This document shows, in pieces, positions 6,201 through 54,719 of a stretch of DNA of 64,000 nt. Position 1 is the stretch's first letter. Each line of letters starts with the position of its first letter. Under the pieces are notes generated by a model. The model was not told where the DNA came from. It saw only the letters and a list, made by a program, of their open reading frames with translations, and did not search any database. Made by a program: the position numbers and the translations under genes. Source of the stretch: Xestospongia muta (lineage: Eukaryota; Porifera; Demospongiae; Haplosclerida; Petrosiidae); NCBI GenBank assembly GCA_963693285.1, contig OY848919.1, positions 12,795,639-12,859,638 of the forward strand. The letters run 5' to 3'.

Positions 6201-6319
6201 ATTGTCAACAAAGTGAATATCATTGGGAATTAGTGGATCATGAAATCATGGTTAAAAAATTTGTCAGTGAAATTAGAGATCTTCTAGTAGCTAGAGAACT
6301 AGATGACAATGAGCTATAA
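204..6319 (+). CDS. CBP/p300-like acetyltransferase, copy A (5' end outside window)
   Basis: This is a second CBP/p300 body, very close to copy C. Exons seen: 204-309, 367-435 and 512-629 and 686-767 (KIX), 890-1027, 1263-1405, 1484-1603, 1752-1838, 1939-2091 and 2196-2281 (bromodomain into RING), 2539-2676, 2726-2871 (PHD), 3047-3181, 3228-3378, 3431-3544, 3662-3980 (HAT), 4036-4203, 4306-4581 (ZZ) and 4745 onward (TAZ2, NCBD). Exons before 204 lie outside the window. Three oddities stand out. The exon equivalent to C 28733-28813 and most of the next one are deleted. The HAT motif reads VKWCQNML where copy C has VEWYRNML. The last exon does not reach the p300 C-terminus but runs in frame into a Roc GTPase and stops at TAA 6317-6319. 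Known p300 proteins acetylate histones and dock transcription factors in the nucleus; whether this copy still does is doubtful. Confidence 0.85.
5123..5956 (+). repeat. Internal duplicated p300 segment at the fusion junction
   Basis: The Pro/Ser/Thr-rich stretch after TAZ2 occurs twice in copy A, at 5123-5353 and 5726-5956, in the same frame. Between the copies lies the NCBD-like helix region ([10 protein letters not shown]) followed by a cut at MQGVMP. The second copy ends LPNLLSGVE and leads straight into Roc. Copy C has only the first segment and continues into its Gln/Met-rich tail. Confidence 0.85.
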
Positions 6320-9300
6320 CATAGTGATGATTGCCAATCTAGTGATGAAACAAGTCTCATTGTTTCTGTACCTTTATCTGTACTTTCTAAATCTTCATTT
6401 AGTCAATTTACTAGTCATAATGATTCAGTTCATCAGTCTTCTTTTAAAGATGACACACTTACAGACAATGTAACAAAGGAATTATATAATATCATGAGCA
6501 CAGCTTATAGTAAGGTGAATAAGTTAACAAATCATAAAGAATGGCTTTATTTCATTGAATGTGGAGGTCAAATACAATTTCAACAGTTAGTACAAGCATT
6601 TGTACCTTGTGCATCAGTTCTTATGTTAGTTACTAATCTAGCTGAAGATCTTTCTAATCAATCGTCCACTGACTTACAATGTGAAGATGGACGTTATTGT
6701 GTAAGTGACTATTCTCCATCTGTTGAAACACTTCTAAGGCGTCTTACACTTATGGTTACTTCAAGTGGTCATCAACAGCAATTAGTAACTAGTGGCCTTT
6801 ATGATATAATCAAGATACCAGAAAAAGCTCTTATTACTGTTGCTACCCATCGAGATGATTATGATTATAAGCAACAACAGAACAGAGAGAAAATGGAAAC
6901 TATTGAAGAGAAAGAAGAAAAACTTGCACAGATATTTCATTCTGTAGAGAACAACTTGTTGTATCGTGATATAGAAAATGAGAAGATCTTGCATGAAGTT
7001 GATGGTCGTAATGCTTCCCATGAAATCTTTGATGATCCAGTAATTAAAGAGATTCGTGCTGAATTAAGAAATCAAGCTTTGGAAGTAGATATTCCGTTAA
7101 GTTGGTATGCATTTGAAATTTTGTTGTATAAAAATGCCGACAAAGGTTGTGGGGTACTCTCATTAGATGAGTGCACAGCTATTGGTTCAGGATTAGGGTT
7201 CACAGAAGAAGAAGTACAAAGTGCTTTGAAATTTTTTCACCTTCTAAATACTATCTTGTATTATAAAGGAGTCTCCGATTTAGTGTTTGTTTTCCCTAAC
7301 AGGCTGATTGAAGTTGTCAATGAACTGGTTGTACTTGTCTGTAAAGTACAAAATAATGTTCCAATTGGTCCAGGGTCACATCATTTTAATAGAGCTGCAA
7401 AAAAGGGCATTATTTCAAAGTCTGTGTTTAGTAAATCAGAGAAAAGTTTAAAGATATCTAGATCATTTCCTAATTTTAGCTCACAGCTTCTGGATATATT
7501 TGAACATCTCCTTATAGCAACAAGAATGTCTGCAGACGAGTATTTTATGCCTGCATTATTACCACTAACAGATCCATCACAATTTAGTCCATCCAACCAT
7601 TCCTCTCTGCTCTACTACTTTAAGAATGGAGCTCCACTTGGTCTTTTTTGTGCTATGATTGTCAACCTCCTATCAACAGCGCTAACAGTCAATGTAGATG
7701 ACTGCTATATGAGTCAACTCTTGGATGACTCCTTTGATAATTCTGTTTGGTCATTTGATACTACATCAACAATGTATGCTAACATGATCACATTAGATCA
7801 CTGTGATATAAGTGAGAATGTAGTTTTTGTAGAATCAAATGATTGTTATGAGATTTACTTTAAATGTCCTGAGGACAAAGCAAGACTTGAGAAAGAACTT
7901 GACTCTATTTTATCAGACACCATTATGAAACGTCAATTAAAGAGTGAAATTCAACCCAAAAAAGCCTCTTTCTGTCCTTGTTTTCAACAACCTCGTCATG
8001 CTGCTATTTTAACATCTAGAGGAGCTTGCTGTACTAAATCTAATAAAGTTGTGACTTTACCAAAAGGTATGTACATATTTGTTATTTTATACAACCCAAA
8101 ATAGTATCTTCTAATATAGTGGTAGCATCTAAATTTGTTTTCATTACACCTAGTTGTACTAAAAATTAAAAAATGGTTTACTTAATCCTTAATATTAAAT
8201 ATCCTTTAAATTTGGCAGGTCTTAATCTTAGATGAAATGTCATAAAACCTATCTAACTATATGTAATTGATTAAAATGCTATTTGCGTGCATTACAAAAA
8301 AGCACAAGGAAAATTTTTGATAAAACATAGGTGGCTATATTGATGCCCAGTGTTGCCAGATGGTGTGATCAAAATTATGCTAGACAGTCATTCAAAAAAT
8401 GCTAAATACCCACCCAATATGCTTAAATGGATTTTTTCCAGAAATAATACTATTCTAATCAAGTTTACGTAGTTGTATAGGTTCTGTGACTTCCAAAAGC
8501 ATGCTTGGTTATACATGTAGCTTTTGTCCTTTTACATTGGATAGATGCAACTATCTGTGAATCAGGATACACAGATATAATGACATCGATAAGATGATCC
8601 ATCACAAGAAAAGAAAGGTTATGCTCAGCTAAAAGAGCTACTAATTTAATTTCAGCTTCCTTCACCTTAGCCAGGTCAGTGAACTCAGCAGTGCTAGTTG
8701 GTATTACTTGCTCAAGCGTTTAAACCAATGGATCCTTTAAGGCTTTCATATTTGTAATGTGCAGATCAGTTTTACCGTGAGCTTTAATAACAGATAGTTT
8801 TGACTGCAGATCCTTACAACACACTTTACAGAAAGCTTAATCTTGTTTACCTTGAAGCTAACCTTGGAAACAAAACTTCTCCCAGCTTTTTCTATATTTT
8901 TTGTGTATTTAGTTTTAACTTGACCTTTAGTCTTTTTGGATACCTTCATTACAAAAAGTCATCGTTTATTAGGAATAAAGTTAAGGTGCAAACATACTTT
9001 TGGTTTCTTAGATGCTGACTCAAACATACTAGTTATTTCTTCAGAGCTTGAGTCAGAAGACTCAGAACTGGTACCACTTTGTCCTCCATGTTGTCACTGA
9101 AGTTTGCAATGCAGCTGGACTTAGAGACTTAGAGTTGTTTAGTATGCATGAATATTATCATTGCTGCATTGCAGAATTAAATCCATGAATATAATTACTC
9201 AATAGCACAGATGGACATGTTTTAGACATAGTGCTAAAAAAGTTCTAAACATTTTTAAAATGTGCTAAAAAGTGCTAAATAATTTCTAGTGCTAAATTGA

Positions 9301-12300
9301 TGCTAAATTTAGCACTAATTGTGCCAATCTGGCAACGCTGTAATGATGCCAGACCACACCTCTTTCAATTTCAATTATAGTCAATAATGTACAGGCATTA
9401 CCTTTGATATGGGCACATTGAACAGTAAATAATTATTCTATATAGTCAGGTACTGCACATAATCTACCAAGAGTTGTAGGTATGTGTGCAATGTATATTA
9501 TTGCTTTTATTTGTGACCCTACTTTGAAATGTTGTTTGTTAGATTCTGACAGAGTGTCTTTAGAGCCTCAACAGTGTGTTGATGTGACTTCTGATAATAC
9601 AGGTATGTAATGTCATTATAAATTTAATGTTAATTTTGTTCATTGCTAACTCCATATTAGCCTCACTTATTATAATAATTTATACTGAGAAATATTTTAT
9701 TACTCTAGATATTACTATTGTGAACTCTGAGTTGGCTAGAGAAGCTCTAGCTCAATATACTAACAATACATTATACTCAAAAGTACTAGTTGAGCCACAG
9801 AGATCTGAACACAGTATGTTATTGAAATAATTTATTGTATCAGAGTCAAATTTCAACAGATAGAAGAAAATCTGAGAGAGTAGATTCTGATGAAGATATA
9901 CCACACCAAAAACAACAAGTTTATGATCACAGTACATCATCTGATGAAGACTCAAAGTCATCAAGTAAATATGGAAAGGAACCAGCAGGAGGTAGACATT
10001 ACACAAAGAAAGGAATACTAAGACCCACAGAACTTAAAGGTATTATAATAGCTTCTATCAACTTGTTTACTTATTTTGTTACAGGACACAAGAGACAAAG
10101 ATCAGAAGACAGTAATTCTGATGGACATCAGTCATCTAGTAAATGCAAAGCTTATTCTAAAGGATCTGATTCATCACATAGAACACAATCATTTCAAGTT
10201 GCAAGGAAAAGTGTAACTGTACAAACAGAATCAATAGAACTGTCAGTAGATAAACATGATGTGTCAGTTCAATTTAATTATCTCATCCTATCAGATGGTA
10301 CTGCTATTTTATAACTGATCCTCTTTATATTGAGTCTTTATAGATACTCTCAAAGGTGTGTGTATTGGAGGAGAGGAGATGTTCCTAATTCAAGGAGATT
10401 CTGCTCAGTTCTTCAACTGGGAACAATATGGATTGAGAATTACTGTTCTTGAAGGCACTTTATCTCCAACAGACACCTGTGAAGTTGCTGTGAGAGCACT
10501 AGTTGGTGGGCAGTTTCAATTACCTGAAGACACAGAATTAATTAGTGCTGTATACAGCATATCTGTGTCTAAACCACTTCTCAAACCAGTCATATTAGAG
10601 ATGCAACATTGTGCAGATCTAGTTACTCAAGATCATACCAGTTATTTGAGTTTTGCTAAAGCTTCTGTTAATACTGGACCTCCTTATCAGTTCAAGCTTG
10701 AAGAAGGAGGACAATTCCACACTGGTGATCAGTATGGTAGCATTTGTCTTTCACAGTTTTCCTTATGGGAAATTGTCAAGAGGTTGCTGGGATATCCTAC
10801 AAGCAGTAAATCATCTTCTGATGATAAGTTATCCTCTGTAGAACTTACTCAAGAGTTTAGAAATGAAGTCAGTCCAGCAATAGGTATACTAAATAAAACA
10901 ATATGCCATTTCATGAATTTTCTCTTTGTAAACAATTCTCTATATAGTAACAAGTTCTGGTATTGGAGACATAGACAGAACAAAGTCATTGACACCTTCT
11001 TTAACAACTGATGATAATGAGCCCAGTTCTGTAGACATATCTACATCTAGTTTAGAACATAGTCCAAAACGTCCTTACTCATCAAGTCTACCTAGTGAAC
11101 AGTCCCAGACAAAAGGTAGACTAATAGTTTTGACAATATTAATAAATGTTCCTGTAGATGTTAGCAAACCATTTATTGATAACAAATATGTAGCTCAGAT
11201 AGTATATGAGGTTAAAAGTCATGGTACTGAATGGTTAATGCACTTTATGGTTGCTAAACATCTCAATGTTTTGCTAGAGGTAAGAAAAAACATTAATAGA
11301 GTTGAATAATATAATAATATATATGTAGTATACAAAGAAATGTCTTCCAGCTGATGTTGACAAAGATGTTTACTTATCCTTCACATTTGAGAAGGATGGC
11401 TACATTGAATTGATCCTTAATGAAAAACAAGAACGTCCTTTTAATGGATGGAATATTGATCCTCATCAAGACCCAGTGGTATATAGGATATTATAGATGT
11501 ACAAGTATTGATGGGTAATTTTTATAGGTATTATATAAACGTGACGTGGACATGTTTGGTTCTCAAAACCCTCCAAGTTGTCCTTCTATACTGATCACTG
11601 TGTCTGCTATACATGGACCTGATACAGTGGCTAAAATAAAATATGGTATATCGTTGAAAAAAATCAAACCTGCTAACACAAAGATATATATTATACGATC
11701 TCTTGGTAATAGTAGAAATGGTAAGTAATCCATTATATTATATATAGTCATGTTCTTTTTAAGAAGGAGCATCAAGTATAGCATCAGCTTTTAAGAGTAC
11801 TTCTACACAAGATATAAGTAAGTGATATTTATTATCATTTATTATTAATAGCTAGTAATTTTCACATTGAATATTGTTAGTTATGTAAACACTGCAGTTA
11901 ATTGTTTGTAGATATCTGTATTGCTTCCTGTCTGTTATGTTATAAGAACTGTAACTTTTGATGTCACTACATGTAATCATCATGTCAGTGCTAAAAGGAA
12001 TCATTGTTAGACAAGAAAAGAATAGAAACAAAATGATAAAAATCATTTTTAAAGATACTGTGGCTAGATTCTAATCAGAAAAAAGCAATACATCAATGTG
12101 AAATTAATGCATTTAGGTTCCAAGGTTTAGGGTTTAGGATCTAGTGTATAATGTTAAACATTAATTAACCATCATATTATAGATGATCTGTTCTTTCTAA
12201 TACATTATTAATAGCTATATCTTTTGTCTCTATACTCTAGATGATACTCTGGACTGTGATGCAGCTAGACGAGCTTTAGTTAAATGTACCAGTGCTATTG

Positions 12301-13765
12301 TTGAATCAAATATTAACCCCATTACTCTAGCAAGGAGACTGATTTCAGAAGAAGTTATTTCTGAGAATGTTTACAAGACTGTAAGAGACAAGAGAACAGG
12401 TGATACAAGTGAAGATCGTCACGACAAGATTCTTGATGATCTAAAGGATCATGTCAAATACAATGCTAATGCCTTCATGATTTTCCTGGATATTTTGAGA
12501 GATGACAGTCTAAATCAAAAAGACTTAGCTGACAAAATAATGTCAAAATATAAAGGTATGATATATTAACTTTAATCCTTTAATTAGTAAATATTCTTTT
12601 CTGTTTCAGAATTAGCTACATGAATTATAGTATAAAAAAGCAAAAGAGTTCACAACATTTTGTTTCACTAACAAACAGTTGTACATATTTTAGAAGTATT
12701 ATGTAAACAATTGTTGTTATTGTCAAGTTGTTAAGTATATTTATATCTTGTGTAAACCAGTGTTAGGGTTTACCAATGTGACTATATCCTTTATAATCTG
12801 ATATAATTTCTTTAACTAATAAATGATCTCTATACATCTATACTACTTACATAGCCAAGAGCAGCTGGAGCAGTTTGAGGTCTACTAGCCACTCCTCCTC
12901 CTCTTTGTGTACAAGAATTTGTCAGAAATAGTTGAGGTTTTGGAGCACTAGTGTTGTTGATCTTCTATAGATATAATAACTAGTAATATAACTAGTAACT
13001 ATTACCTGTGATGTGTATGGTCTATTAAGACAAAACCATTGATATATAGTTAACAGTTCTTGATGTTGTATTTCAACATGAGGATTACTACAGAGACAAC
13101 AATGATAGGAGAGAGAGAGAGACAATTATAAAACAAGTGATCATGTAACATACTTGAGTACTTGATTCAACATTATTGTTAATGTCTGATAAAAATTATA
13201 TTCTTGCTGTGACACTAGTGTTAATGAAACAGTTCACATGTTATTGCTCAGTTTGGTGTAAGTTATTGCTCAGTTTGGTGTAACTTGATATTCATAGAGT
13301 GTTACATACATTCATTTGATACACGGAGGTAAAATAATTGTTTATGTTACAAGTACTGTTTTAATAGTTTTATTATATTTATTAAAATAAACAATAAGTA
13401 ACTCTACCTCTATGTGTGTTTTTTTTATATTCATTACTCTGGCTACAGATAATACTACCGAGAGTTGTGATAAGGCTGTAAGAACTTTAGTTCAATGTAC
13501 TGACATTATTGTTGAATCAAATATTGATCCCTCTGTTCTGGCAAGGAAGCTTTATACAAAAGAAGTCATCTCTGAGAATGTTTACATGAGAGTAAGAGAT
13601 AGAGCCAGTAGGGATACAAATGAGGAGAGTCTTGAAACCATTTCTGTTGATCTTAAGAGTCGTGTCAAGTATAATGTCAGTATCATGATGACATTTGTGG
13701 ATATTTTGAGAAATGATTTCAAACAAAATGACTTAGCTAATATAATCATGTCAAAATTTAAATAA
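5960..13765 (+). pseudogene. Roc-COR-ZU5-CARD-CARD gene fused to p300 copy A, one in-frame stop
   Basis: The Roc-COR part lies in the same exon as the p300 tail (4745-8066). A P-loop (GPARAGKTS) is followed by TAA at 6317-6319, where copy B has CAA, and the same frame then stays open to 8066. The G3 motif reads ECGGQ (DCGGQ in B) and the G4-like motif THRD; a COR-type region follows. Later exons, all phase-compatible: 9543-9602, 9709-9813 (N-terminal third of a CARD-like fold), 9860-10039, 10085-10297, 10344-10883 (ZU5-like), 10975-11115, 11158-11279, 11329-11478, 11528-11720, 11767-11817, 12241-12555 (CARD 1) and 13449-13765 (CARD 2, ends TAA). A poly(A) signal lies near 13797. Families of this architecture are intracellular GTPase-linked signalling or immune sensors; the role here is inferred. 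With a single stop and all downstream splicing preserved, this is either a young pseudogene or a gene with an unseen start after the stop (for example ATG 6494). Confidence 0.75.
8348..9340 (-). mobile_element. hAT-like DNA transposon remnant
   Basis: A 993-base insert lies in the intron after the Roc-COR exon of copy A and is absent at the matching place in copy B (about 21.4-21.7 kb). The ends are inverted repeats: CAGTGTTGCCAGAT at 8348 and its inverse with one change ending at 9340. Flanks read tattgatgcc and taatgatgcc, a 9/10 match that looks like a target-site duplication, although hAT elements normally give 8 bases. The minus strand at 8465-8665 encodes a peptide with KEAEIKLVALLAEHNLSF and later CKRTKAT, typical of the region after the BED finger in hAT-related transposases. 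Stops and frame breaks show it is dead. Confidence 0.75.
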
Positions 13766-17381: not shown

Positions 17382-20300
17382 ATGGCGGAGCTGAACTCTG
17401 TAGACATCAGTGAAGATGGTGTACCACTATCAAAAAGGCCCAGAATAAGTGAACGTGGAGAGAATAGTAGGTTTAACGTATTTGTCTGGTATGCCTTTTA
17501 TAATGTCTGTCCATTCTGTTTCTGTAGACATGGATTATCGCCGACCACATCTACATCACATGATCAGAGGTACAGTAAGCCCCTTTAATTAACTCTATTT
17601 AATTTATTAATATTGCCTGTAGGATCTCCATTGAGTGACCCCTGGCCCTCATCATTACCTTTGAAGAAGAGAAAATACAAGATGAGTCATTTGAATCCAT
17701 CACTTATAAATGAAGAAACGCCTAAATCAGCTCCCTTATCTGCTACTCCTCATCTAGCTGCAGGCCCTATCCCTGGGAAAATGAGGGCAACAGTTTCACT
17801 GAACCCAACTGCCATCCCAGCTAGCTCTGCCTCCTTGCCTAATCCAGCCACTTCGTGGCATTGTAATGAGTTTGATGTAAGTAGTGCTAGTGTCCTTCTC
17901 TACAAGCACATATCTTTTCAGTATTCTTAAAAAAGGTTCAAAAGTGAAACGACCAAACCTTCCATGCTTTATTTCTTTACTTACGTTTTCTTAGATACAA
18001 AACTTTGCTGACATAAATGTATAAGTTTTTTGTGTCATTGAAATAAATGCAATAAAGAACATTTTGAGTAATTCATCACCAAACCAATAAATAGACCTTT
18101 TTGTCTCGGTCCTATTTTAAATATTTTTAATCTATGAGTTATGATTTTACTTATCTAGCCATCCTTTCATCTATTCATCCATTACTAACACTCATGTATC
18201 CATTTATCTTATAGAATGTTGATTTATCTCAAACCTGTTATACTTCAGTTGGTCATGACCATCCAATGGAGGAGCTTGGTTTTAATATGGGAGACGAAGA
18301 AAAAACATCTCAGAATACAATAGCTAATCGAGCAGAGCACTTTAAAATACGAAAATTCCTTACCCATGTCTGTCAATGTCAAGATCACACTTGTTCTAAC
18401 TCACTATGTTTCAAGATCAATCAACAGCTTCGTCATCCCAGAGACTGTAAAAACAGATCATCAGGAAAATGCGATGCTTACAGTATCTTTCTCCAATTGT
18501 GTACTAATCATGTCAAGGAATGTAAAGAGACGAAATGTCCTGTGCCGATATGTGCCACATTGAAGGAGAAAAACAAAGAAAAACAGGGCAAGAGTTTCCA
18601 ATTAGCTCAGCGTAGAATATACCAAACAAATAAATTGAAGCCTTCACCATCTAGCAGTGTAGTACTTAGAAATTGGCACTCTGAGGTCAACTCTGATCTA
18701 CGAAACAACCTCATTAAAAAATTGTAAGCTAATAAATGGATGGATGGATGAATAAATTGGTGAACATATAATTAAGTCATTACATGATATATTGTCTAGA
18801 GTTGAAGCTATTTATCCAGTCCCTGAAAGTCGAGTGCCTGTTGATAATCCATTCTCTAGACTTTATCAGTATGCTGTACGTGTAGAGAGATCTATATTTG
18901 AGACAGCTAATAGCAGAGTATGACCACATAATCATATATATATATGTGTGTTATTAATATATGTGATATATAGGAGGACTACTGTCAGAAGTTAGAAGAG
19001 AGAATTTATCGGACTAAGAAAGAACTGGATGAGAAACGAAAAAACAAACAAAAGGGTGAGAATAATGGATGGATAGAAGAAGGGATGGACAAATAAAGAT
19101 AAATAGATGGATGAATTTATGGACAGGCTGACAACTAAATTACTCAATATTTTTATATTCCCTTGTTAATGGTGTAGAACATAACAGGAGGATGGCTTTA
19201 TTAGATCAATATCTTCGTAAGGGTCTTAAAAAAAGTGGATCTATTAAAACTAGAATTACTAAAGCTGTTATACAAGGACCAGCTAGAGCTGGTAAAACAT
19301 CAGTAAAATGTCTAATTCTCTCAAAACCATACACAAGTATTATCAGTACAGGTTGTATTGAGTCTCCTCAACTTGCTGTTGGAGAATTTTCAATGAGTCG
19401 TTATGGTCAACAAAGTGATGAGTATCATTGGGAATTAGTGGATCATGAAACCATGGTTAATAAATTTGTTAGTGAAATTAGAGATCTACTACAAGATGTC
19501 CTACAACGTAGTGATGACTGCCAATCTACTGCTAAAACAAGTCTCATTGTTTCTGTAGATTCTAAATCTTCATTTAGTCAATTTACTAGTCATAATGATT
19601 CAGTTCAACATTCTTCTTTTAAAGACGACGTGCATAGAGACAATGTAACAATGGAATTACGTGATATTGTAATGACAGCTTATAGTAATGTGAATAAGTT
19701 AACATATCATAAAGAATGGCTCTATTTCATTGATTGTGGAGGTCAAATACAATTTCAACAGTTAGTACAAGCATTTGTACCTTGTGCATCAGTTCTTATG
19801 TTAGTTACTAATCTAGCTGAAGATCTTTCTAGTCAATCATCCACTGACTTACAATGTGAAGATGGATGTTATCGTGTAAGTGACTTCTCTCCATCTGTTG
19901 AAACACTTCTAAGGCGTCTTACACTTATGGTTACTTCAAGTAGTCATCAACAACAATTAGTAACTAGTTGCCTTTCAAATATAATCAAGATACCAGAAAA
20001 AGTAACACTTATTACTGTTGCTACCCATCGAGATGATTATGATTATAAACAGCAACAGAACAGAGAGAAAATGGAAACTATTGAAGAGAAAGAAGAAAAA
20101 CTTGCTCAGATATTTCATTCTGTTGAGAGCAACCTGTTCTATTGTGATGCAACAAGTAAAAAGATTTTGCACGAAGTTGATGGTCGTAATGCTTCTCGTA
20201 AAATCTTTGATGATCCAGTAATTAAGGAGATTCGTACTGAATTAAGAAATCAAGCTTTTGAAGTAGATATTCCATTAAGTTGGTATGCATTTGAAATTTT

Positions 20301-22309
20301 GTTGTGTAAAAATGCCGATAAAGGTTGTGGAGTACTCTCATTAGAGGAGTGCAAGGCTATTGGTTTAGGATTAGGGTTCACAGAAGAAGAAGTACAAAGT
20401 GCTCTGAAATTTTTTCACCTTCTCAATACTATCTTGTACTATGAAGGAGTCTCCGATTTAGTGTTTGTTTTCCCTAACAGGCTGATTGAAGTTGTCAATG
20501 AACTGGTTGTACTTGTCTGTAAAATACGAAATAATGTTCCAATTGGTCCAGGGTCACATCATTTTAATAGAGCTGCAAAAAAGGGCATTATTTCAAAGTC
20601 TATGTTTACTAAATCAGAGAAAAGTTTACAGATATCTAGATCATTTCCTAATTTTAGCTCACAGCTTCTGGATATATTTGAACATCTCCTTATAGCAACA
20701 AAAATGTCTGAAGACCAGTTCTTTATGCCTGCGTTATTACCACTAACAGATCCATCACAATTTAGTCCATTTAACTGTCCCTCTCTGCTCTATTACTTTG
20801 AGAATGGAGTTCCACTCGGTCTTTTTTGTGCTATGATTGTTAACCTTTTGACAACAATTGATGTGGATGACCTTGATATGAATCAACACTTGGATAACCC
20901 ACACATTTTTTATGATAATTCTGTTTGGTCAGTTGATACTACATCACCAATGTATGCTAACATGATCACATTAGATTGTTGTGATATAAGTGAGAAAGTA
21001 GTTTTTGTAGAATCAAATGATTGTTATGAGATTTACTTCAAATGTCCTGAGGACAAAGCAAAAATCGAGAAAGAACTTGACTCTATTTTATCAAGCACCA
21101 TTATGAAACGTCAATTCAAGAGTGAAATTCGACCCAAAAAGGCTTCTTTCTGTCCTTGTTCTCAACAACCTCGTCATGCTGCTATTTTAAAGCTTAGGGG
21201 AACTTGCGCAATGCGCTGTACTAAATCTAACAAGATTGTGACTTTACCAAAAGGTATGTACATATTTGTTATTTTATATGTACAACCCAAAATAGTATCT
21301 TCTAATATAGTAGTAGCATCTAAATGTGTTTTTATTTTACCTAGTTATACTAAACATTTTAAAGATGGTTCACTAAATCCTTAACATTAAAATCCTTTAA
21401 ATTTTGCAGGCGTTGATCTTAGGTAAATTGTCATAAAAACCTACCCGACTATATATATACAATCGATTAGATGCTATTTGCGTACATTACAGAAAAAGCA
21501 TTAGAGGTATAATCAAATAGTTGAACTGCTTTATCAATATATGAGACTTAATCTTGACAGCTCTCAATTTCCAAATGACACTCCTAAACCCTAAACCCTT
21601 TAAATCACTGTGGAGATCTGCCAGACCACACCTCTCATTCATTATCAATTTCACTGTACAATAATGACCAATAATATCCAGGCAATGCTTTGATATATAC
21701 CCAGACATTAAACAACAAAGAACTATTTTATGTAGTCAGGTACTACACATGACCTATCACTAAGTATTGTGTGTATGTATCTAATGTAAATTATAACTTT
21801 TATACGTGACTATACTTGAAATATCGTTTGTTAGATTCTGACAGAGTGTCTTTAGAGCCTCAACAGTGTGTTGATGTGACTCCTGATAATACAGGTATGT
21901 AATGTCATGATAAAATTAATGTTCATTGCTAATTCCTAGTTAGCCTTTCTTTTTAATAATAATATATACTGTAAAGTATTTTATTACTATAGGTAATATC
22001 ATTCTGAACTCTGATTTGGCTGTAAGAGCTCTAGTTCAATGTACTGACATTATTGTTGAATCAACTATTAACCCCATTGTTCTGGCAAGAAAACTTCATT
22101 CAAAGGAGGTCATATCTGAGGATGTTTACAAGAAAGTAAAAGACAAAGTCAGTAGAGATACAAACGAGGAGCGTCTTGATACTATTCTTGATGAATTAAA
22201 GGATCGTGTCAAGCACAATCCTGGTATTTTCACTAAATTTGTGGATATTTTAAGAGAGAAATTAAACCGTAATGACTTAGCTGACGAAATTATGTCATAT
22301 ATAAACTAA
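17382..22309 (+). CDS. Chimeric TAZ2-KIX-Roc-COR-CARD protein (copy B)
   Basis: Nine exons join in phase to an open frame of about 1180 aa: 17382-17466, 17528-17569, 17623-17876, 18215-18723, 18800-18917, 18974-19055, 19178-21253, 21835-21894, 21993-22309 (TAA). The start MAELNSVDISEDGVPLSKRP matches the p300 N-terminus. Residues 128-150 are the second half of a ZZ finger, about 172-245 a TAZ2 domain, about 271-363 a KIX domain, about 390-640 a Roc-type GTPase (P-loop GPARAGKTS near 397, DCGGQ near 549, THRD as G4-like motif), about 715-930 a COR-type region, and the last 105 a CARD-like fold. TAZ2 before KIX is the reverse of p300. The TAZ2 second zinc site has Tyr (CDAY) where C has Cys (CSAC). 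No bromodomain, HAT or ZU5. Known Roc-COR proteins are dimeric GTPases in signalling; here a GTPase seems joined to coactivator docking modules. A poly(A) signal lies near 22,415. Confidence 0.8.
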
Positions 22310-25405: not shown

Positions 25406-28400
25406 ATGATGGCAGAGCAGACCTCGGCAGACACCAGTGCTCCTGGTGTACCACCATCAAAAAGAGCTAGGATGAGCGAAAGTGGTAAGTAAAGCAGGTT
25501 TTAGATGTCCTTCTCGATGTGGGCCGGGCTGGCTACACACGGCCATTGTTGTCTGTGTATATTAGCGAAGAGCGTTTGTTTGTACGCATTATTTAAAGTC
25601 ATTTCGATTTGCTGTTGAGTTTAAACTCCTTAGAATTGATATAAAATTGAGCTTGATAAGTAAGAATAGAAATTAGTGACTGATCTTTGTCAGCAATAAT
25701 TTTGAGACTGCTCAGTTTCCTCAATTTATTATTGAAAATAATTTTTGCTTGCTTTAGCAATATTCAAATAATATTGTATATAGTTATAATATTGTTATAT
25801 TTGATAGATAGCTCAAGGACAGCTCATATGCTTCTGTTTTATGTAATAATGTCAAGCAGAAAAGCCATTGTGTTAAAAGTTACCTAAAAATTTTAAGTCT
25901 GTTTGAAATTTAAGATAATTTTTTTGAAATTTAAATAATACTTAAACATTTCAATGCGTTTATCTTTTTTTCTTTGTATTTATCCATTTCGTTTATTCAT
26001 GCATCCATTTAACCATCTATCCATCCATTTATCTACAGATATGTTAGTGCAGCTCCTAGACCTTCCAGACGAACTGAATGAAATCAGTGATATGAACAGC
26101 AATGCATTTCTCGGAGCTCCACTTCCTTCTTCCAATAACATTGATTCACAAACTGTTAATATGGGACAGCTAGGAAATCCTGGTGATCTAGCCACACCCC
26201 CATTGAATAATATGAGCAATTCTGCGACTCCACCCCCCAATATTGGGATTTCTAACCAACTAAATTCTCATGTTCTCGGTAACTCCACACCCCCTCCAAA
26301 TGCTGTTATTAGTACTTCTGGGGATCCTACCCCTCCTTTACCCTCGGTATCTGCCTCTCCCACTCACTCTATCTCTGTTCCTTCATCCTCATCCCTAATG
26401 GCACCCTCGGCCAGTATTGGGTCACCCTATCATCATATGACTAACAATACCATGTATAACCATGGCAACCATATGACCACACCCCCAGGCATGATGGCTG
26501 GACAAATGGATGGCCGTTTACCTGGATATGCTCAAGGTCCTCAGCGTCCTTATAATCCTAATGTCGGAATAGGAACCCAAAGAATGGTATCTCGATTCCC
26601 TACACCTCACATGAACCCACACATACCTCACCAAACCCCACCCCCTCACTTAATGAACCAACATCCAGTAGATCCAAGATTCTCTGTAGTTCAGCCGCAG
26701 CAGGTCCACACTAACCCAGTCAATATGATGCCACATCAACCTAATCCTGGTACCATGCCTCAAATGTCTTCTGTTAACAGACCTCCTATGCCAGGTCCAG
26801 GAGCTGTGGGATTATCATCAGAACAGCCTCCTCAGCAACAACAGGTATAATAACAATTATTCTATAAGTGCGTAGAAATAAAAAGAGTTTGTTTAGTTAG
26901 GACAAGACCTTGACCTGAAAAGCACAATGTATTAGTAGTTAAGTTACCAATAGTATCTATTATATTAACTATAGAACAATACATTGTAATGATGAGCTAA
27001 GATACAGCTATCTTCTAGTCTTAGTGGACTAAAATCTTAGCAATTTGGCTATCTTTCATTTCCTCTCTCTTTAGCCTCAGTTACCAGGTCCTCCTGGAGG
27101 TGGACCTCCTCAACCAGTTCCCAATATGCCACAGGCATCATCAGCTAGTAATGATCCTGAAAAAAGAAAACTCATTCAGCAACAACTTGTGCTTCTCCTC
27201 CATGCTCATCGCTGTCAACAGAGAGAGAAAGAACAGCAGCTACATGGGACCTTTAGACCTTGTTCTTTGCCTCATTGTCGTACTATGAAGAATGTTTTAA
27301 ATCACATGACTGGTTGTCAGGCTGGACGAGACTGTGATTGTAAGTTATTAGTAATAATTATAATAGGAGTTCACCCATTGTAACAGAAAGAATATGTTGT
27401 CAATTAACACAGGGGTTTACCCATTAATGTTGTACTAATACTAGGTGTTAATAATATACATTAATTGCTGGAATTTACCTTTATTTGCAAAAAGCAACTA
27501 TAGTATCTCTTAAATTAACCCTTTAATCATAAATACAACAACTGAATAATTAATTTTATAATGACAGGGATCATCCCCTGATTATTATATTTAACCCTTT
27601 AGTTGCACATTGTGCCTCATCACGTCAAATTATCTATCATTGGAAGAACTGTACACAACCAGAATGTCCAGTATGTTTACCTCTTAAGTCGTCAACACGT
27701 GGACCCATGGGAGTGGGACCTCTTGATCCTAATGGAGGAGTGGGAATACCCCCGTCTCCTGCAGGTGGTGTCCACGCCAATATGATGGGTCCTAGTTCTC
27801 AATATTCTAGTAGTCCCGGCCATCTTATGTCTAATGGAAAGTCTAGTATGTTCATTGTAGCAAGTATATATCCATTTTGTATTTTATTTATCCATTTAAT
27901 TTATTAAGCATCCATTTTTATAATTATTGTAGCTATCGTGAATCCCTAGTATTAATTATGCATCTATTTAATCTGTATGATATATCCATTTTTTGTCATG
28001 CATCCATATGATAAAATGTCCATCCATAATACAATAAGTCATTTATCCATTTTGTTTTATAGGTATGGAATACGGCAATAGACAAATGTATCAGCCACAT
28101 CCTATGATGGGAGGTGGTGGAGTACCTCTTAGACAACCTCAACCATATCCTCCTCCTCCTCCTCAAACGTAAGCCCCTATCATTAATTATAATAATATTT
28201 TATTATTAATATTCTATCTCTAGTGGTGTAGTACCTAGAAATTGGCATTCTGAGGTCAACTCTGATTTACGAAATCACCTTATTAAAAAATTGTAAGCTG
28301 ATAGACAGATAGAATGATGGATGAATTAGTGGATATACAATGGAGTCATTACATGATATATTGTCTAGGGTTGAAGCTATTTATCCAGTGCCTGAAAGTC

Positions 28401-31400
28401 AAGTACCAGTTGATAATCGAGTCGCTAGTCTTTATCAGTATGCTGTACGTGTAGAAAGATCAATGTTTGAGACAGCTAATAGCAGAGTATGACCACATAA
28501 TCATATATATATGTATATATTATTAATATATGTGATATATAGGAGGACTATTATCAGAAATTAGCTGAAAGAATTTATAGGATCAGAAAAGAACTGGACG
28601 AGAAACGTAAGAACAGAAGAAATGGTGAGAAAAATGGCTAGATAAAAAGATGGATGGATGGATATATGATGAATTTATGGACGGACTGGCTACTCAAGAT
28701 GATCATCTCATGAATTATTCATATTTCAATAGGTCCCCTTGTTAATGGTGTAGGCGATGGGAGTGGTCATCCCCTTAACACTCCTCAACCCACTCCATCT
28801 TCACAAACTAATAGTAAGCTCCTTTAATTAACTCTAATTAATTCATTAATATCTTGTTCTAGTGCCTTTAGTATCTCCATTGGATGACTCCCTATCGTCA
28901 AACCCCTCATTAACTTTCCCGCCCACACCACACTCTGATAATGGAGAGAATAAAAAGAGCGAAGTTCTCAAAATGCTCATGTCAACTGCTCCTGTTTCAT
29001 CCCTACCAACTCCCTCTTTTTCACCTTCAACGACCACCAATAACCTTTCTTCTGACTCTCTGGCTTCTAAGATGTTGTCAGATAACACTACTGTATCTGG
29101 ACAACCGCCTCTAGCTGCTCTTCCAGCTGATGTTAAAACTGAACCCGATACTAAAATGGACTCTGTTCCTTCACTTTATGATATTAAACAGGAGTCAATG
29201 GAGACGTCCTCTCATAATCCTTCGGCTAGTGTGTCACAATCACCTCAGTCAGGTAGTAAATTGTCATGTGATATAATACTGTTGTCATGTGATTGTTTTA
29301 TGATCTATTGCAGTTATCATATGCTAATCATGTGATATAATATTGTTGTCATGTGACTGTGTGTGATATAATGTGATTGTCATATTATATAGTACTGTTG
29401 TCATATGATGTTATTGTGATGTAACGCAGTTGTCATATGTTAATCGTGTGATATAATACAGTTGTCATGTGACTGTGTGTGATGTCATACAGTTGTCATG
29501 TGATTATTGTTTGATATAATGTGATTATGATGTGATATAATACAATCGTCATGTGATAATTTTTTCTGTAGTTTCAAGTATTAAGCATTCCTCTGTTCGA
29601 AGGGAGAGTATTACTGAAGCCCCGCCTGCTATATCATCACCTTTGCCAATTTCAGAAGAACCTCCTCAAACAAAGCCCAGTCACAAAGTTAAACCAGACC
29701 CTAATTTAATTAAGGTAAATAATAACAGGAGCATCTAAATTTAATTAATATTCATTAATAATGGGAGTCCCCTCATAATGTACTTTATATTACAATAGGT
29801 CTTTACAGCAGAGGAAATAGAGGTGGCATTACGTCCAGTGTTTAATGCTGTATGGTTTCAAGATCCTGAAGCTTATCCATTTCATAAACCTGTAGATCCA
29901 TATGCTCTAGGAATTCCTGTAAGTGTGTGTCTATTATGTATGTTATTTGTCCATTTATGCAGTATGTATGTCCATACATATACTCATGATCATCCATTCA
30001 TATTATATTGCAATATATTCATTACTCTTTTTTATTCATCCATTTTAATAACTATTTATCCATTATAGGACTACTTTGAAATTATCAAAAACCCTATTGA
30101 TCTTTCTATAATTGACAACAGATTAAAATTGGGAGAGTATACCACACCTTGGGAGGTGGGCATTAATTAGAACAATCAACTTTTTAGATGTTTGTTAATT
30201 AACAATAATTAGTGGTAATTACACCAATTTTACTCTAATTTTCTCCTACACTAGTTCTGTAATGACATGATGTTAATGTTTGATAATGCATGGACTTACA
30301 ATAAGAAAACATCGCGAGTCTACAAGTTTTGCTCAAAGTTAGCGGAAGTCTTCAACGAACATATTGATGATGCAATGAAAAGACTTGGATATTGTTGTGG
30401 ACAAAAGGTAATAGACCACACCCCTTTAATTACTTATTACTTTCACTTTTACTTTGTAAAATGACCCTGTAATGATTATGTTAATGAGGTAATTATCTCT
30501 TTTTTGTAGCACGTATTCCATCCTCAAGTATTGTATTGTTATGGTAAACTTTGTCCTATACCACGTGACTCACCTTATTATGGATACCAGAGCAAGTAAG
30601 ACTGAGACCTATACTAGTATGAGTCTGAGACTAAGTATATATGACCTTATTGGTACGAGTCAAAGACTAGTGTGAGACTAAGACCTGTATTACCTAGTAT
30701 GGGTATGAGACTAGGAGATATTAAAGTGGATTTCAAGCTAAGACTTGAAATTTGATGTACAGTTATATTTATAAGAATATGTTAGTTTGAGTTTGAGACT
30801 TAGATTAGGTCTGAGTCTAGGATTAGGTTTCAGTCTTTCATATTTCCTTTAGTCGTTATGTCTACTGTACAAAATGTTTCCAAGAAATCCCTGGAGAATG
30901 CATTGCTGTTAATGATGAAGGAGCCAACCTGAACTCTATACCCAAAGGAGCTTTTAAAGAAATGAAAAATGACTCTGTTGGAGTTGAACCGTAAGTCACA
31001 TGACTATCACAAATTATCACATGATCTTTTTTGATATAGGTTTATTGAGTGTATTCATTGTAAGAGACAGTTTCATAAGATATGTGTATTGCACCATGAA
31101 GCTATATGGTCAGAAGGATATCAATGTGATAACTGCTTAAGAGCTCTGCTAAGTAAAAGGAGAGATAATAAATTTGTGGCCAAACGTAAGAATGAAGGAA
31201 TGGATGGACATAGAAACAAATGGACAGATGGATTATAAAATGGAAGCATAAAATAAATCGAATGGATGGATAGATGGCAACATGGATGTATAAAAATTGT
31301 AAATAGATATATGACTTGTTAAAAATCACAGTCTATGTTTTATTCCATATGCTCTTATAGGTTTACCACCCACCAAACTTGGTAGTTTTCTAGAAGAACG

Positions 31401-32457
31401 TGTAAACACATTCCTACATAATGTCAATGCTGATGGAGCAGAGGTTACCATCAGAGTAGTTTCTTCTTCAAACAAGTTCCTTGACACCAGACTAGGTAAT
31501 GTCACACCCACCAAGCCACACCCTTTTATTTAATATTACAGGTATGGTGGATAGATTTTCTGGTTTCCCTAACCAGTTTCCATATCGAACTAAAGCTCTC
31601 TTTGTCTTTGAGGAAATTGATGGAGTGGATGTTTGTTTCTTTGGTATGCATGTACAGGAATATGGCTCTGATTGCCCTGCCCCTAACACAAGGTAAATCT
31701 TATTAATATTCATTAGAATATTATTTAATTTGTTGTTTTTGTAGGCGTGTCTATATCTCTTATCTGGACAGTGTTCACTTTTTCCGTCCCAAACAATATC
31801 GTACTTTAGTGTATCATGAAATACTCATTGGCTACTTAGAGTTTTGCAAGCAGAATGGGTAAATACCTAATTATTTATTCATCATGGCAATGTTAATTAA
31901 TATATCACCATGGTGATGTTAATTAATTAGAGTTATACAACTATTTGTGTTATTATTATTTGCCACACCCTCTAGTTTCCAGACTGCCCATATATGGGCG
32001 TGTCCACCTGGCGAAGGAGATGACTATATCTTCCATTGTCATCCAATTGAGCAAAAAATTCCTAAACCTAAACGTCTTGTAGAATGGTATCGTAACATGT
32101 TAGAACGAGCAGCACAACAAAATGTGATCCATCAGTTTGAAGACATCTTTCAGTATTGTACTGAAGAAGAGATCACCATGGTAACAGAGATACCATATTT
32201 CGAAGGAGATTTTTGGCCCAATGTTATTGAAGAGACAATAAAAGAGTTGGATCAAGAAGAGGAGGAAAGGAAGGCTTGTGAAGCTTCTGGCGATGTAAGG
32301 AGAGAGAGAGAGAGACAGAGAGACAGAGAGAGAGAGACAGAGAGACAGAGAGAGAGACAGAGACAGAGAGAGACAGAGACAGAGAGAGAGACAGAGAGAG
32401 AGAGAGACAGAGAGAGACAGAGAGACAGAGAGAGACAGAGACAGAGAGAGAGACAGA

Positions 32458-32489
<32 letters not shown>

Positions 32490-34847
32490 CAGAGAGAGAG
32501 AGAGAGACAGAGAGAGACAGAGAGAGAGAGAGAGACAGAGAGAGAGAGAACTGTTTTATAATATGGATTTATTTTTTAACCCTTTCACAGCAACAACGTG
32601 TTGGATCAAAGAAGGCTGGTAAACGAAGTACAACAAAAAATAAGAAAGGAAATAAGAAGGCAGCTACTAGAACTAAGAGTAGTAAAAAAGTTAACCCTCT
32701 CATTAGTGGAGATGATTTGACTCAAAAAATATATCAAACAATGGACAAACATAAAGAGGTAATGGATGCATGGATAATGGACAGACAGACAAGTGGATGG
32801 ACAAACAGACAAATAGATTAATGGATGAACATATGTACAAAAATTGTATCTCTTTTTTAGGTCTTTTTTGTCGTTTTTTTACAACCTCCTCAAGTATCTT
32901 CACCACTTCCAGCAACAACAGATCCCGATTCTCTAGTAACATGTGAATTAATGGACGGACGAGATGCATTTTTGAACTTAGCACGTGAGAAACACTGGGA
33001 GTTCTCATCACTACGTCGTGCTAAGTATTCTACCATGGCTATGTTGTATGAGTTACACAACCAAGGAGATCGATTTGTCTATACTTGTAATTATTGCCAC
33101 ACTGATGTGGAATTCAGATGGCATTGTAAAGAATGTGATGTAAGTAAATGTACTACCATCTGATCTGATCGGATCTGATCTTTTTATACATCCATTTGTT
33201 ATATTTATTTGTCTATTCAACTATGTATCTATACAAGTACTTTATGCATCCATCCTTTCATCTATTCATCCATTACTAACACTCATGTATCCATTTATCT
33301 TATAGGATTATGATTTGTGTCAAACCTGTTATACTACAGTTGGTCATGACCATCCAATGGAGAAGCTTGGTTTTAATATGGGAGACGAAGAAAAAACATC
33401 TCAGAATACAATAGCTAATCGAGCACAGCTTTTTAAAAGACGAAATGAGTTCCTTATCCACGCCTGTCAATGTCGAGATCACACTTGTTCTAAACCACTG
33501 TGTATCAAGATGAAACAACTACTGCGTCATGCCAGAGATTGTAAAATGAGAGCATCAGGAAAATGCAGTGCTTGCAATTTCTTTATTCGTATGTGTGCTA
33601 GCCACGCCCAGGAGTGTAAAGAGGCGAAATGTCCTGTACCGATATGTGCCACATTGAAGCAGAAAATGAGGCAGAGACGTCAACGAGAACAAGACAGGAG
33701 TTACCAATTAGCTCAGAGAAGAATACACAAAATGAATCAATCGAATCCTTCACCACCTACAAATGAAGAGGCTCCCATATCAGCTCCCTCACCTGCTACT
33801 CCTCATGTAGCTGCAGTTCCTACTCCTGGAAAAATGGTAGCAACAGGTTCTCCGAATCCTCGCACACCAGTCAACCCAACTACCATTCCAGCTAGCCCCG
33901 TCTCCTTGCCTAATCCATCTACTCCATTTGTTCCAGTAACACCTCAAACACCCATGACAAAACCTGCTGAGAGTGTAGCTCCTAATATTGTAGTTCAACC
34001 AACGCCAGCTCAGCAGTTCCAGCAGAGTATTGCAGAAACAACCCAGACACTTATCAATGCTCTTACGTCACTAGCTCCTCAGGATAAATTCAAAGCTAAG
34101 GAATATTTACAAAAACATCCTGACTATTTACCACGTGTCATAAATATGTTGAAACATCAGCAACGTGAACAAGAAGCCTTCCAAATACAACAAGAGTTTA
34201 TGGGTGTTCCTCGTGCACCCATTTATCAAAATCCTATGCCACCTCGTCCAATGTCTCGTACCAATATGATGCAGGGGGTGATGCCGCAAGGAGGCTCAAT
34301 GATGAATGCAATGTCTACAATGACACCTGCTCAATATGGAGGTCATCCCTCATATCATGGTAGTATGATGCCTAGTCATAGAATGCCAGGACAAATACCT
34401 ATGTTCCACAGTCACTCGACAGGGCCGATGACCACAGGTCCTCCACAACATCCTCACTTACCACCGCATATGATGCAACGACCAATGCCTGGACAATATC
34501 AACAATATAATATGCCTGGGGGACAACCTCCTCCACAGTATATGAGACCACGGCAACAGTATCAACAACCAACGATGATGTCCCAACCTATTATGCGTCA
34601 GATTAATATGGGAGTGCCCCAGCAATCAATGGTTAGTCAAATGAACCCTCAACAAATGAGACCAATATCAATGACTCAATATCGTCCACCTATGGATCCA
34701 AACATGGGCATGGCAGACCCATCAATGGTGGGCGGGGCTCCGTATCAATATGGTGCTAACACCAATAACAATAACAACAATATTCATCCACAATTGTTAC
34801 TAGGATCGAGAACTTTTAATAGCATGGACCCACGTACGTCATCCTAG
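25406..34847 (+). CDS. CREBBP/EP300: CBP/p300 histone acetyltransferase, complete copy C
   Basis: Twenty-four exons join in phase to about 1938 aa: 25406/25409-25484, 26039-26844, 27075-27339, 27603-27845, 28063-28168, 28224-28292, 28369-28486, 28543-28624, 28733-28813, 28863-29252, 29572-29714, 29799-29918, 30069-30155, 30255-30407, 30510-30595, 30853-30990, 31040-31185, 31361-31495, 31542-31692, 31745-31858, 31976-32294, 32591-32758, 32861-33139, 33306-34847. Domains: TAZ1 about 320-400, KIX 499-590, bromodomain 794-905, RING/PHD 910-1040, HAT 1040-1340, ZZ 1395-1440, TAZ2 1477-1543, NCBD about 1672-1713, then a Met/Gln/Pro-rich tail. The HAT keeps the catalytic tyrosine (VEWYRNML, codon 32088-32090). 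The family acetylates histones and bridges transcription factors in the nucleus. Two adjacent ATGs at the start are both possible. Splicing at 34,838 to 34,989 could give another short tail. Confidence 0.95.
32297..32551 (+). repeat. (GA)n/(GACA)n microsatellite in p300 intron
   Basis: About 255 bases of gagagaca-type repeat directly after the splice donor at 32,295. The same intron in copy A has only about ten bases of it. The repeat has no stop in the preceding exon frame, so a retained intron would add about 85 residues rich in Arg, Glu and Gln before TAA at 32,559-32,561. Confidence 0.95.
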
Positions 34848-47301: not shown

Positions 47302-49107
47302 TTATGGGGGTGGATAGACCAAAGGTGGAGGAGGAGGTAGAAAACTCTTCTTAGATGGGAAATCAGCACACAAACTGGGAAGATTGAGCCATGGGTTAAC
47401 AAGTGGGAGAGATATATAATGAACAACACCATTACTAGCAGCGATGTCTAAATGTGTGATAACAGCACCTGTTTTTCCTACAGCAATCCCTCCATCGTCA
47501 AGGACAGACACTGGCACTTTCTTACAAATAGTATAGTACTTTTTCTTGTAATAATAATAATAATAATAGTGATATTTGTGACACGCTCTTGTTGTCAGCT
47601 CTTTCCGTAATTCAACTAATATCGTACTATATTCAGCACCGCATACTAAATGGTAAAGTAGAAATTTCTTCAAAGCTGCAGGTTTTGCTTTGAGACAGGC
47701 AACGATATCCAAATTAAGGTCAGAGACAGCTGTTTGAATGGCTTCATCTGTTGGAGCAAAGAGGGTTAACAAAGGGAGTGGTTTATCGAGATCATCTAGG
47801 AGGTTAGCACACTTTAACAGTGTCTCCAAAGTAGTCAAATTAGCAGAGGCTCTAACAATATCACCAATAGTCTTTTTTGAACTATCAATAACACCTTTGA
47901 TGATGTGGACGATACCATTAACTGCTATACAAGCATCACGAGCAATCAACTCATTTCCATTAATGAAGATACGCTATATAACGAGACAGACAGATAGACC
48001 ACATTTAATAATTGTTTTTACACTAACATTTATTTATACAAGGAATAAATTTGTTATTGTATAGTTACTCTTCTTACAAGGTGATACTCAATTCTACTAT
48101 AAGCTATTATATTGTTACTATTGGTTACTGACCTCATAGTAATAATACTTCCACTTGACCCATTTTTTGAGTTCAACTTCTGTTACATGTATAAATCGTC
48201 CTGTACTCAAACTAGCTATTTTTTGACCATTTGTCAATTTTATTGCAGGAACCAATTTCCCTACAACATGAGATCTCAGGACCGTCTCTAAATCTGTTGA
48301 TGAGAGTGTGTCGAGACCTGAAGAGACTAACACTTCATTTGTAGGTGCAAAAATAGTAAATTTATTGCTATTAATTGTGTTAAGTAATGTCTCCAAGTTG
48401 AGTCCAGGTGTAGAGAGAAGATTGGCAAATTCTGTAAGCCCAAGCTCTCTCAAACACTGAAGTGTTGTATTAATAATAGCTACAACAAAGTAAGACAAAA
48501 ATGTAAGTTAACACTGCCTTGCAACATGACTCTCTTACCTCTGGGGCATCCATTCTTCTTCAAATAGTATGCACTTTTGCTATTGATTCTGTGATGATAG
48601 TCAGTAGGACTAGGTGCTGTAGTAAAACCAGGACAACATTTGTACTCATTAGATTTAGAAGTCTTCTTGTAATCACATTTATCAGTACGAACACACCTAT
48701 AACTAGAATAATATAGAAAACAGAATTTAAAAATATGCAAAAAATAACACTCTCTTTTCCTTACCTGCAATACCATTTATACCACCAACCCTTTCTGCAT
48801 TGTTTCTTGTAAACATAGCTATAATAATACTTGGTATAAGTTCTTGTTGCCTTACAAACATTATGTCTAACAAAAGAAAATAAACATTATCACAATACTT
48901 ACTACAAAGACACAACACACTGCAGATCAGTCACAACACTTACCCAGTACAGTGAGTACATGGAGATAACTTCTCGTCAATCAACATTGTCTTTCCACAG
49001 GGTCTACGTATACCTGGATAACATTTTCCTCCTGTATGCTTACCATAGGTAGCGAGTACTGGTACAATGATACATCCAACCAGGACAAGAAGCAACAGTC
49101 TCTTCAT
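47302..49107 (-). CDS. Secreted EMI-FAS1-FAS1 protein (periostin/TGFBI-like), divergent member F1
   Basis: Five exons on the minus strand join in phase to 482 aa: 49107-48944, 48866-48765, 48702-48539, 48479-48133, 47973-47302. A signal peptide (MKRLLLLVLVGCIIVPVLAT) is followed by a Cys-rich EMI-like module (PCTHC, RVCVRT-like pairs, EYKCCPGF). FAS1 domain 1 contains FTIFAPTNEVL and a late HVTEVE; domain 2 contains LLTLFAPTDEAI, YHLVCGAEY and SNGVVHYISLPLV. It ends in a Pro-rich tail (FLPPPPPLVYPPP). Known relatives are extracellular matrix or adhesion proteins. A run of seven Tyr after TTRACHKYH comes from an (ATA)n microsatellite at 47,546-47,570. No GPI signal or membrane segment is seen at the C-terminus. 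Confidence 0.88.
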
Positions 49108-49928: not shown

Positions 49929-50171
49929 AATTAATAGTGTCACAATTACCAGCAACAGATAACACAATATATATTAATATATGAGGATTATATTATTACT
50001 TACATTAGTACATGGATGTACTTCCTCTGATATGAGCTTTTTCTCTCCACAAGGTTCATACCAATAAGGAGTACAGGGATCTCCAGCCTTGACATTACCA
50101 TTTCCAATATGTATAGCTACAGATGTAGCTACAAGACAACCAAGAATAACAATTCCGAGTGATACTTTCAT
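49929..50171 (-). pseudogene. Internally deleted EMI-FAS1 relic 1
   Basis: The first exon is intact at 50171-50004 (MKVSLGIVILGCLVATSVAI signal peptide, then PCGEKKLISEEVHPCTN) but has lost about eight bases before its donor, which shifts the phase. Intron 1 then runs into the last bases of the final exon (about 49,965-49,929), so exons 2-4 and almost all of exon 5 are deleted. Confidence 0.7.
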
Positions 50172-51655: not shown

Positions 51656-51673
51656 ATCATTAGATGTACATAT

Positions 51674-54703: not shown

Positions 54704-54719
54704 CATTAGATGTACATAT

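Follow-up and report, generated by a model that had tools for sequence, protein, structure and literature searches.

A chimeric gene joining p300 modules to Roc-COR and CARD in the sponge Xestospongia muta: a candidate receptor with an integrated bait

Why should partner-binding modules of p300 share one open reading frame with a Roc-COR GTPase and a CARD? The question is raised by a gene on the forward strand of a 64,000-nucleotide stretch of the Xestospongia muta genome (the window; contig OY848919.1, here C3:12,795,639-12,859,638), which we analysed together with the 158 Mb genome in 28 contigs. The gene, u5 (17382-22309), is one of six units, u1 to u6, of a tandem p300 array. Spliced at the DNA level, its nine exons and eight GT-AG introns yield a single open frame of 1180 amino acids in the order p300 exon 1, half ZZ, TAZ2, KIX, Roc-COR and CARD. 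An initial annotation had read nine canonically spliced exons closing in frame to about 1180 residues, and a p300-type start leading through half a ZZ, TAZ2 and KIX into Roc, COR and CARD; the eight introns and 1180 codons bear out the former, while Pfam, PDB matches and predicted folds bear out the latter. As a reading that falls a little short of probable, we propose that u5 is a member of a Roco-CARD receptor family with captured host signalling modules as baits, by analogy with the integrated-decoy NLRs of plants.

Exon plan and domain identity

The exons and the fusion intron of u5 are as follows.

17382..17466, + strand: exon 1, p300-type start (MAELNSVDISEDGVPLSKRPRIS...), with a GT donor at 17467
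17528..17569, + strand: exon 2, MDYRRPHLHHMIRG, GT-AG on both sides, conserved in the chimeras u1 and u3
17623..17876, + strand: exon 3, a p300-tail piece located after TAZ2 in full copies, ending in the apparent first ZZ residues (WHCNEFD)
18215..18723, + strand: exon 4, half ZZ, TAZ2 and the first part of KIX; zf-TAZ 28.3 bits
18800..18917, + strand: exon 5, middle of KIX
18974..19055, + strand: exon 6, end of KIX, with the native p300 phase-1 donor, the same donor as in u2, u3, u4 and u6
19056..19177, + strand: fusion intron, the intron that follows KIX in p300, complete with its acceptor TTAATGGTGTAG, aligned to the u6 p300 and to u3
19178..21253, + strand: exon 7, Roc-COR, with an alternative family acceptor at 19205; P-loop GPARAGKT, DCGGQ, THRDD
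21835..21894, + strand: exon 8, linker, GT-AG, with a similar frame in u1-u4
21993..22309, + strand: exon 9, CARD and stop

The tail piece in exon 3 has tblastn matches at 5153-5362 (E 3e-18) and 33714-33923 (E 1e-17), and its closing WHCNEFD weakly matches WHCKECD at 4561 and 33119 (E 0.23). KIX scores 65 bits over the spliced exons (Pfam cut-off 27); it passes that cut-off only with the exons joined and is absent from the four genome-wide KIX exon matches. Two residues that we take to lie near the CREB groove are changed, Tyr to Cys (also in u2) and Ala to Glu, and for this reason the u5 KIX may have partners that differ from those of p300. The ZZ-TAZ2 part scores 79 bits against the p300 ZZ-TAZ2 in the PDB. 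Counted on what we take to be the zinc-ligand pattern, its TAZ2 has 11 of the 12 ligands, a second-site Cys being replaced by Tyr.

The Pfam search proposed in the initial annotation hit KIX and TAZ; Roc-COR and CARD fall below their cut-offs yet are supported by predicted folds, which match Roco/LRRK and CARD structures. The AlphaFold2 model of the u5 Roc-COR has Roc and COR in tandem and finds LRRK2, LRRK1 and Roco as structural matches. The GTP-binding motifs GPARAGKT, DCGGQ and THRDD are all present, and in an alignment of 28 sequences G25, K31, D177, G179, G180, H275 and D277 are invariant or nearly so. At the level of sequence, a single Roc-COR sequence finds nothing in the PDB at E <= 1, and a Roc-COR profile finds weak matches only, LRRK1 among them (E 0.55). 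The CARD model (predicted local distance difference test 91.1) has the six helices of the CARD fold, and the first 36 rows of a Foldseek search against the PDB are all CARD structures or CARD-containing (best E 0.077, probability 1.00); Pfam scores for CARD are 11.9-15.5 bits, below cut-off, and a CARD profile gave no significant match against PDB sequences. A Pfam scan of the 1180-residue protein found neither a HAT domain nor an NB-ARC or NACHT ATPase, and the switch folds as Roc-COR.

A homologue search with the whole 1180 residues (29 matches among 7986 candidates scored) found relatives of the Roc-COR part and two distant HAT-domain proteins, and no fused protein, a negative of little weight since the sponge matches are mostly exon-sized frames.

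The p300 array, the Roc-COR family and selection

Genome-wide exon matches to the p300 domains lie almost entirely in C3:12.75-12.83 Mb, which holds 9 of 10 for TAZ, 4 of 4 for KIX and 7 of 7 for HAT, all seven HAT matches falling within u2, u4 and u6. Self-comparison resolves six units. All share an upstream stretch and open with a related exon 1, which in the other five is 59-86% identical to that of u5. The units are listed here with the parts that lie within the window; negative positions precede it.

-45449 to -39113: u1, chimera of p300 tail, TAZ1, Roc-COR and CARD, open over 1245 amino acids
From -35481: u2, p300-type copy with TAZ1, KIX, HAT and TAZ2 matches, and behind it a Roc-COR copy with 4 stops
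-10001 to -5140: u3, chimera of p300 tail, KIX, Roc-COR and CARD, open over 1316 amino acids
From -1992: u4, p300-type copy with TAZ1, KIX, HAT and TAZ2 matches
4745..8104, + strand: end of u4, where a single frame leads from half ZZ, TAZ2 and tail to Roc-COR, with one in-frame stop at 6317-6319
12249..13753, + strand: two CARD-like exons downstream of the u4 Roc-COR, 62% identical to the u5 CARD exon
17382-22309, + strand: u5, the chimera under study
25409..34847, + strand: u6, p300-type gene (TAZ1, KIX, HAT and TAZ2 matches) without Roc-COR

The three open chimeras jointly hold TAZ1, KIX and TAZ2, the part before Roc scoring 66 bits for TAZ in u1 (TAZ1) and 91 bits for KIX in u3 (Pfam). Searches with Pfam and a HAT profile found no HAT, bromodomain or PHD in u1, u3 or u5. 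The chimeras adjoin p300 genes within one array and have the upstream sequence in common with them. Breakpoints are not alike between units, and the Roc copies behind full-length p300 copies bear stops, four in u2 and one in u4. Five stops listed in the genome match of u1 were discounted, the match extending beyond the end of the Roc exon, which is itself open. The CARD-like exon at 12249-12545 scores 19.4 bits for CARD, below cut-off, and that at 13430-13753 has no Pfam match; between them and the u4 Roc-COR copy lies a ZU5-like frame (window 10334-11011; 20 bits, cut-off 21).

The Roc-COR exon belongs to a much wider family, with 674 candidate relatives in the genome, 60 of them scored; relatives that carry an organism name are three Amphimedon queenslandica proteins at 31-35% identity. 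Outside the array we read 20 loci, 15 in a first set and 5 picked for lying in the C8 cluster, and at 7 of the 20 (L019, L020, L032-L036) a named signalling domain stands upstream on the same strand. At L019 the domains are SH3, on an exon of its own, and SH2 (94 bits) with a tyrosine kinase (317 bits) in one frame, and a spliced model runs stop-free through SH3, SH2, kinase and Roc-COR over 1215 residues, the first exon not being found. In the remaining six the exons are of the Ras family, the main ones scoring 46-65 bits. Rac-like exons occur as well in L020 and its neighbours, and when pieces of L020 and L034 were joined by eye, the resulting peptide had Rac1 as its best match (257 bits). 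Among the Src/Rac/Rab fusions only L019 was modelled by splicing, in part, and the Rac-Rab-Roc chain is a candidate read from exon order. The upstream exon ends in the motif TTTACTGAAATTG/GT (the slash marking the splice site) in L019, L020, L032, L033 and L034, and similarly in L017. Within C8:6.31-6.69 Mb, the region to which comparison by genome-wide coordinates was confined, all 11 Roc-COR loci among the matches listed have a same-strand upstream module, a Ras module in 9 (<=0.6 kb) and an SH2 frame in 2 (~1.1 kb), one of these two being the spliced L019. Upstream frames at nine further loci hold a Death domain in L023 (24 bits), a weak Death match in L021, ankyrin and a sub-threshold Roc in L025, and LRR in L029; at L017, L018, L022, L024 and L027 the frames scanned, at least one per locus, gave no domain match.

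Three features of these loci may be recorded separately. The Src-type kinase at L019:5551-6897 has DFR instead of the usual DFG, with NELSSQ-like repeats between the kinase and the Roc-COR exon. L020, L032, L033 and L034 have divergent Rac-like exons, then Ras/Rab-like exons, a common QFTEIG linker and Roc-COR. At L017:776-5521 several frames upstream of the Roc-COR gene look RRM- or PARP14-like by eye; two were scanned, with no Pfam match.

Selection was gauged by the ratio of nonsynonymous to synonymous substitution rates (dN/dS), as simple pairwise counts in an array where gene conversion is likely, changes not being assigned to branches. For Roc-COR the ratio is 0.55 between u5 and u3 (p 0.018), 0.40 between u5 and u1 (p 2e-8) and 0.46 between u3 and u1 (p 2e-6), p being for an excess of synonymous change; pairs that include a broken copy, counted with other ends, give 0.52-0.68. 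Roc-COR is under purifying selection among the three open chimeras. The u5 KIX compared with the other four gives a dN/dS of 0.19-0.22 at a dS of 0.41-0.53, a figure not divisible between the two branches of each pair. KIX, with its low ratio, is the better-kept module of u5, because TAZ2 evolves fast and is short of one zinc ligand.

The KIX-Roc junction and rival explanations

The intron that separates KIX from Roc in both u5 and u3 is the one that p300 itself carries downstream of KIX. Its acceptor, found in u6 as well, is also that of p300, and Roc coding sequence starts immediately after it. The acceptor of the Roc-COR family, AG/ATCA in phase 1, lies 27 bases further on in u5 (19205) and is also in frame. 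The initial annotation had suggested seeking the same junction beyond this gene: it recurs in u3, 27 kb away, with 84.7% identity across it, and its intron end apparently opens P0003, a protein from a 9.7-kb contig of another source that continues into Roc-COR (65% over 20 residues, E 3e-6). Proteins P0004, P0002 and P0001 resemble u1, u3 and u5 at 97, 91 and 85%. Outside the array, the start of the Roc exon could be placed behind an AG at 16 of the 20 loci (15 AG/AT, 1 AG/AG; 4 not placed), by a pattern that seeks an Asp or Glu codon, so that the G of AG is built into the search and the A alone is a test.

These observations bear directly on two of the alternatives. An assembly artefact joining two genes, which the initial annotation had named as grounds for abandoning the chimera, might be expected in a repetitive array, where assemblies fail, yet it is hardly credible for a junction found in two units 27 kb apart and, apparently, directly before Roc-COR in P0003. 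Rather improbable, too, is a split into two genes, with the p300-like part transcribed by itself and Roc-COR-CARD started independently, perhaps from the ATG at 19192, which is in frame and 13 bases before the family acceptor in u5. A separate Roc start is compatible with the sequence, since in-frame Met codons also lie upstream of the Roc exon in u1, u2, u3 and u4. However, the u5 ATG is not conserved (u3 has TTG there, u1 no ATG), 15 of the 16 outside loci at which the exon start was placed lack an in-frame Met between the last stop and the Roc exon (stretches short, 4-58 residues), a single frame in u4 runs unbroken from TAZ2 through the tail into the start of Roc, and the KIX donor and its acceptor are p300's own pair.

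The other two alternatives accept the fused gene and dispute what it is for; we consider both unlikely. If u5 were a functionless by-product of an unstable tandem array, its exons joined by recombination and its frames open by chance and recency, then the stops in the u2 and u4 Roc copies, the varying breakpoints, the degrading TAZ2 and the non-significant constraint on the CARD would all be expected; what would not be expected are three different chimeras open over 1180-1316 amino acids with all splice sites, purifying selection on Roc-COR together with a low KIX dN/dS, and similar arrangements elsewhere in the genome (L019, C8 loci). A chimeric transcription regulator, by comparison, would compete with p300 for activation domains as a dominant-negative or scaffold, under nucleotide control by Roc-COR and with a CARD link to cell death or NF-kB, no pathogen being involved. 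This agrees with the retention of activator-binding modules and a p300-like start, and with the position of the chimeras in the same array as p300 genes behind common upstream sequence, but it leaves unexplained why the corresponding slot of some related Roc-COR genes holds a Src-type kinase or Rac/Rab-like modules, and also the sheer size of the Roc-COR family (674 candidates, 60 scored).

A putative receptor with integrated baits

The reading that we favour, a Roco-CARD receptor in which captured host modules act as baits, places these observations in one scheme. Exon shuffling inside the tandem p300 array would have allowed p300 partner-binding modules to be taken up by at least three open Roco-CARD genes. 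The u5 protein would be an intracellular sensor with an integrated bait, its p300-derived start (basic, resembling a nuclear localisation signal) and its KIX and TAZ modules presenting the surface of p300 to activation domains and to pathogen mimics of them. Occupancy of the bait would be passed to the Roc-COR GTPase switch, altering how it dimerises or which nucleotide state it is in, whereupon the CARD at the C-terminus would nucleate a signalling assembly. Bacterial effectors and toxins commonly act on Rac, Rab and Src proteins. At the DNA level, a host module is fused into a switch-signalling receptor in u5, u3, u1 and L019. In the available text of PMC12547938, the activator-binding domains of p300 are TAZ1, KIX, TAZ2 and IBiD, with TAZ2 and IBiD binding viral E1A; the three chimeras cover 3 of these 4, TAZ1, KIX and TAZ2. 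The initial annotation had seen in u5 a sensor or decoy sampling activation domains: the architecture and the decoy idea fit three open chimeras and Src/Rac/Rab modules in the same slot of some related genes; in u5 itself, KIX is better kept than the degrading TAZ2.

Several observations weigh against this reading. In u5, half ZZ and TAZ2 evolve fast (dN/dS 0.61-0.81) and a zinc ligand is lost, purifying selection on the CARD is not significant (dN/dS 0.61-0.73, p 0.10-0.23), and the KIX ratio is shared between two branches. Counted with other Roc ends, the same three Roc-COR pairs give 0.63, 0.45 and 0.46. None of the CARD fold matches reaches E <= 0.001 (Foldseek, PDB). In vertebrate p300, IBiD is located in the tail, and a PDB sequence search did not recognise it in the p300 tail here. 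The upstream Met codons in u1, u2, u3 and u4 and the u5 ATG at 19192 count on the same side. No host module of Src/Rac/Rab type was found at 13 of the 20 outside loci, of which 9 were scanned in part and L026, L028, L030 and L031 were unscanned, and the C8 genes are tandem copies, hence few independent events. The fused transcript, the ligand of the bait, the behaviour of the GTPase and the output of the CARD are what we infer from DNA.

Among known systems, the integrated decoys of plant NLRs come closest: a switch protein with a signalling end carries copies of host proteins suspected to be effector targets, in varied and repeated fusions, as the accessible part of PMC5067614 describes. In the present family, by contrast, a Roco GTPase serves as the switch in place of NB-ARC and a CARD or other death-like domain as the output, the genes are those of an animal, and effector binding is putative. 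Unlike the ROCO proteins LRRK1/2 and Chlorobium tepidum Roco, u5 is without LRR or a C-terminal kinase, and has p300 modules in the N-terminal slot and a C-terminal CARD. Exon 1, TAZ1, KIX and TAZ2 of the chimeras derive from CBP/p300, but none of the three was found to have a bromodomain, PHD or HAT, and in u5 the order is changed, TAZ2 preceding KIX. The brown algal LRR-ROC-COR genes are likewise a Roco expansion diversified by exon shuffling and proposed to be immune, although LRR exons are shuffled there and whole host signalling modules here (PMC11378527, in the portion available). The Amphimedon death-like and TRADD-N expansions are also large sponge families combining death-like domains with variable partners, including SH2, SH3 and kinases, but they are built on a TRADD-N base with variable C-termini, and the text available to us of PMC8195603 does not name p300, Rac or Rab modules or N-terminal swapping on Roc-COR. 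The main text of a Dysidea avara NLR paper, as far as it was accessible, does not contain the words ROC, COR domain, decoy or TAZ (PMC12909245).

In the literature searched (titles and the starts of abstracts, best-ranked only for broad queries), no description of a p300-Roco-CARD protein or of a sponge integrated decoy was found. We know of no animal counterpart of integrated decoys built on Roco proteins. Roco proteins, CARDs, p300 and integrated decoys are each already known, and this search suggests that the p300-Roco-CARD combination is new.

A broader proposal is possible, and we hold it with less confidence than that for u5 itself: that an animal lineage has independently evolved integrated-decoy immune receptors on Roco-death-fold switches, with an N-terminal slot, fixed by a phase-1 intron, filled by shuffled host proteins that pathogens attack (p300 TAZ1, KIX and TAZ2, a Src-type kinase, Rac, Rab), and with CARD or death-like domains as the outputs of these baits. 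Plant immunity has integrated decoys among its central ideas; if these genes prove to be expressed, and pathogen factors to bind the p300, Rac, Rab and Src modules, bait receptors would have evolved convergently, and the modules would amount to a list of the host proteins attacked by sponge pathogens. The array displays a possible origin for such receptors in tandem p300 duplication, phase-1 introns and a Roc exon able to follow different phase-1 donors.

Two minor observations concern other parts of the contig. L016 (C3:10482500-10492499) has on its minus strand a pair of TAZ1-type exons that lies outside the array (best exon 42.4 bits) and is followed on that strand by a HECT-type frame (32 bits); this may be a further p300-derived fusion. 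Within the window, a tandem array at 47302-60858 (minus strand) contains frames for fasciclin domains, the three that were scanned scoring 57-60 bits; its repeats run from ~49000 past the window end.

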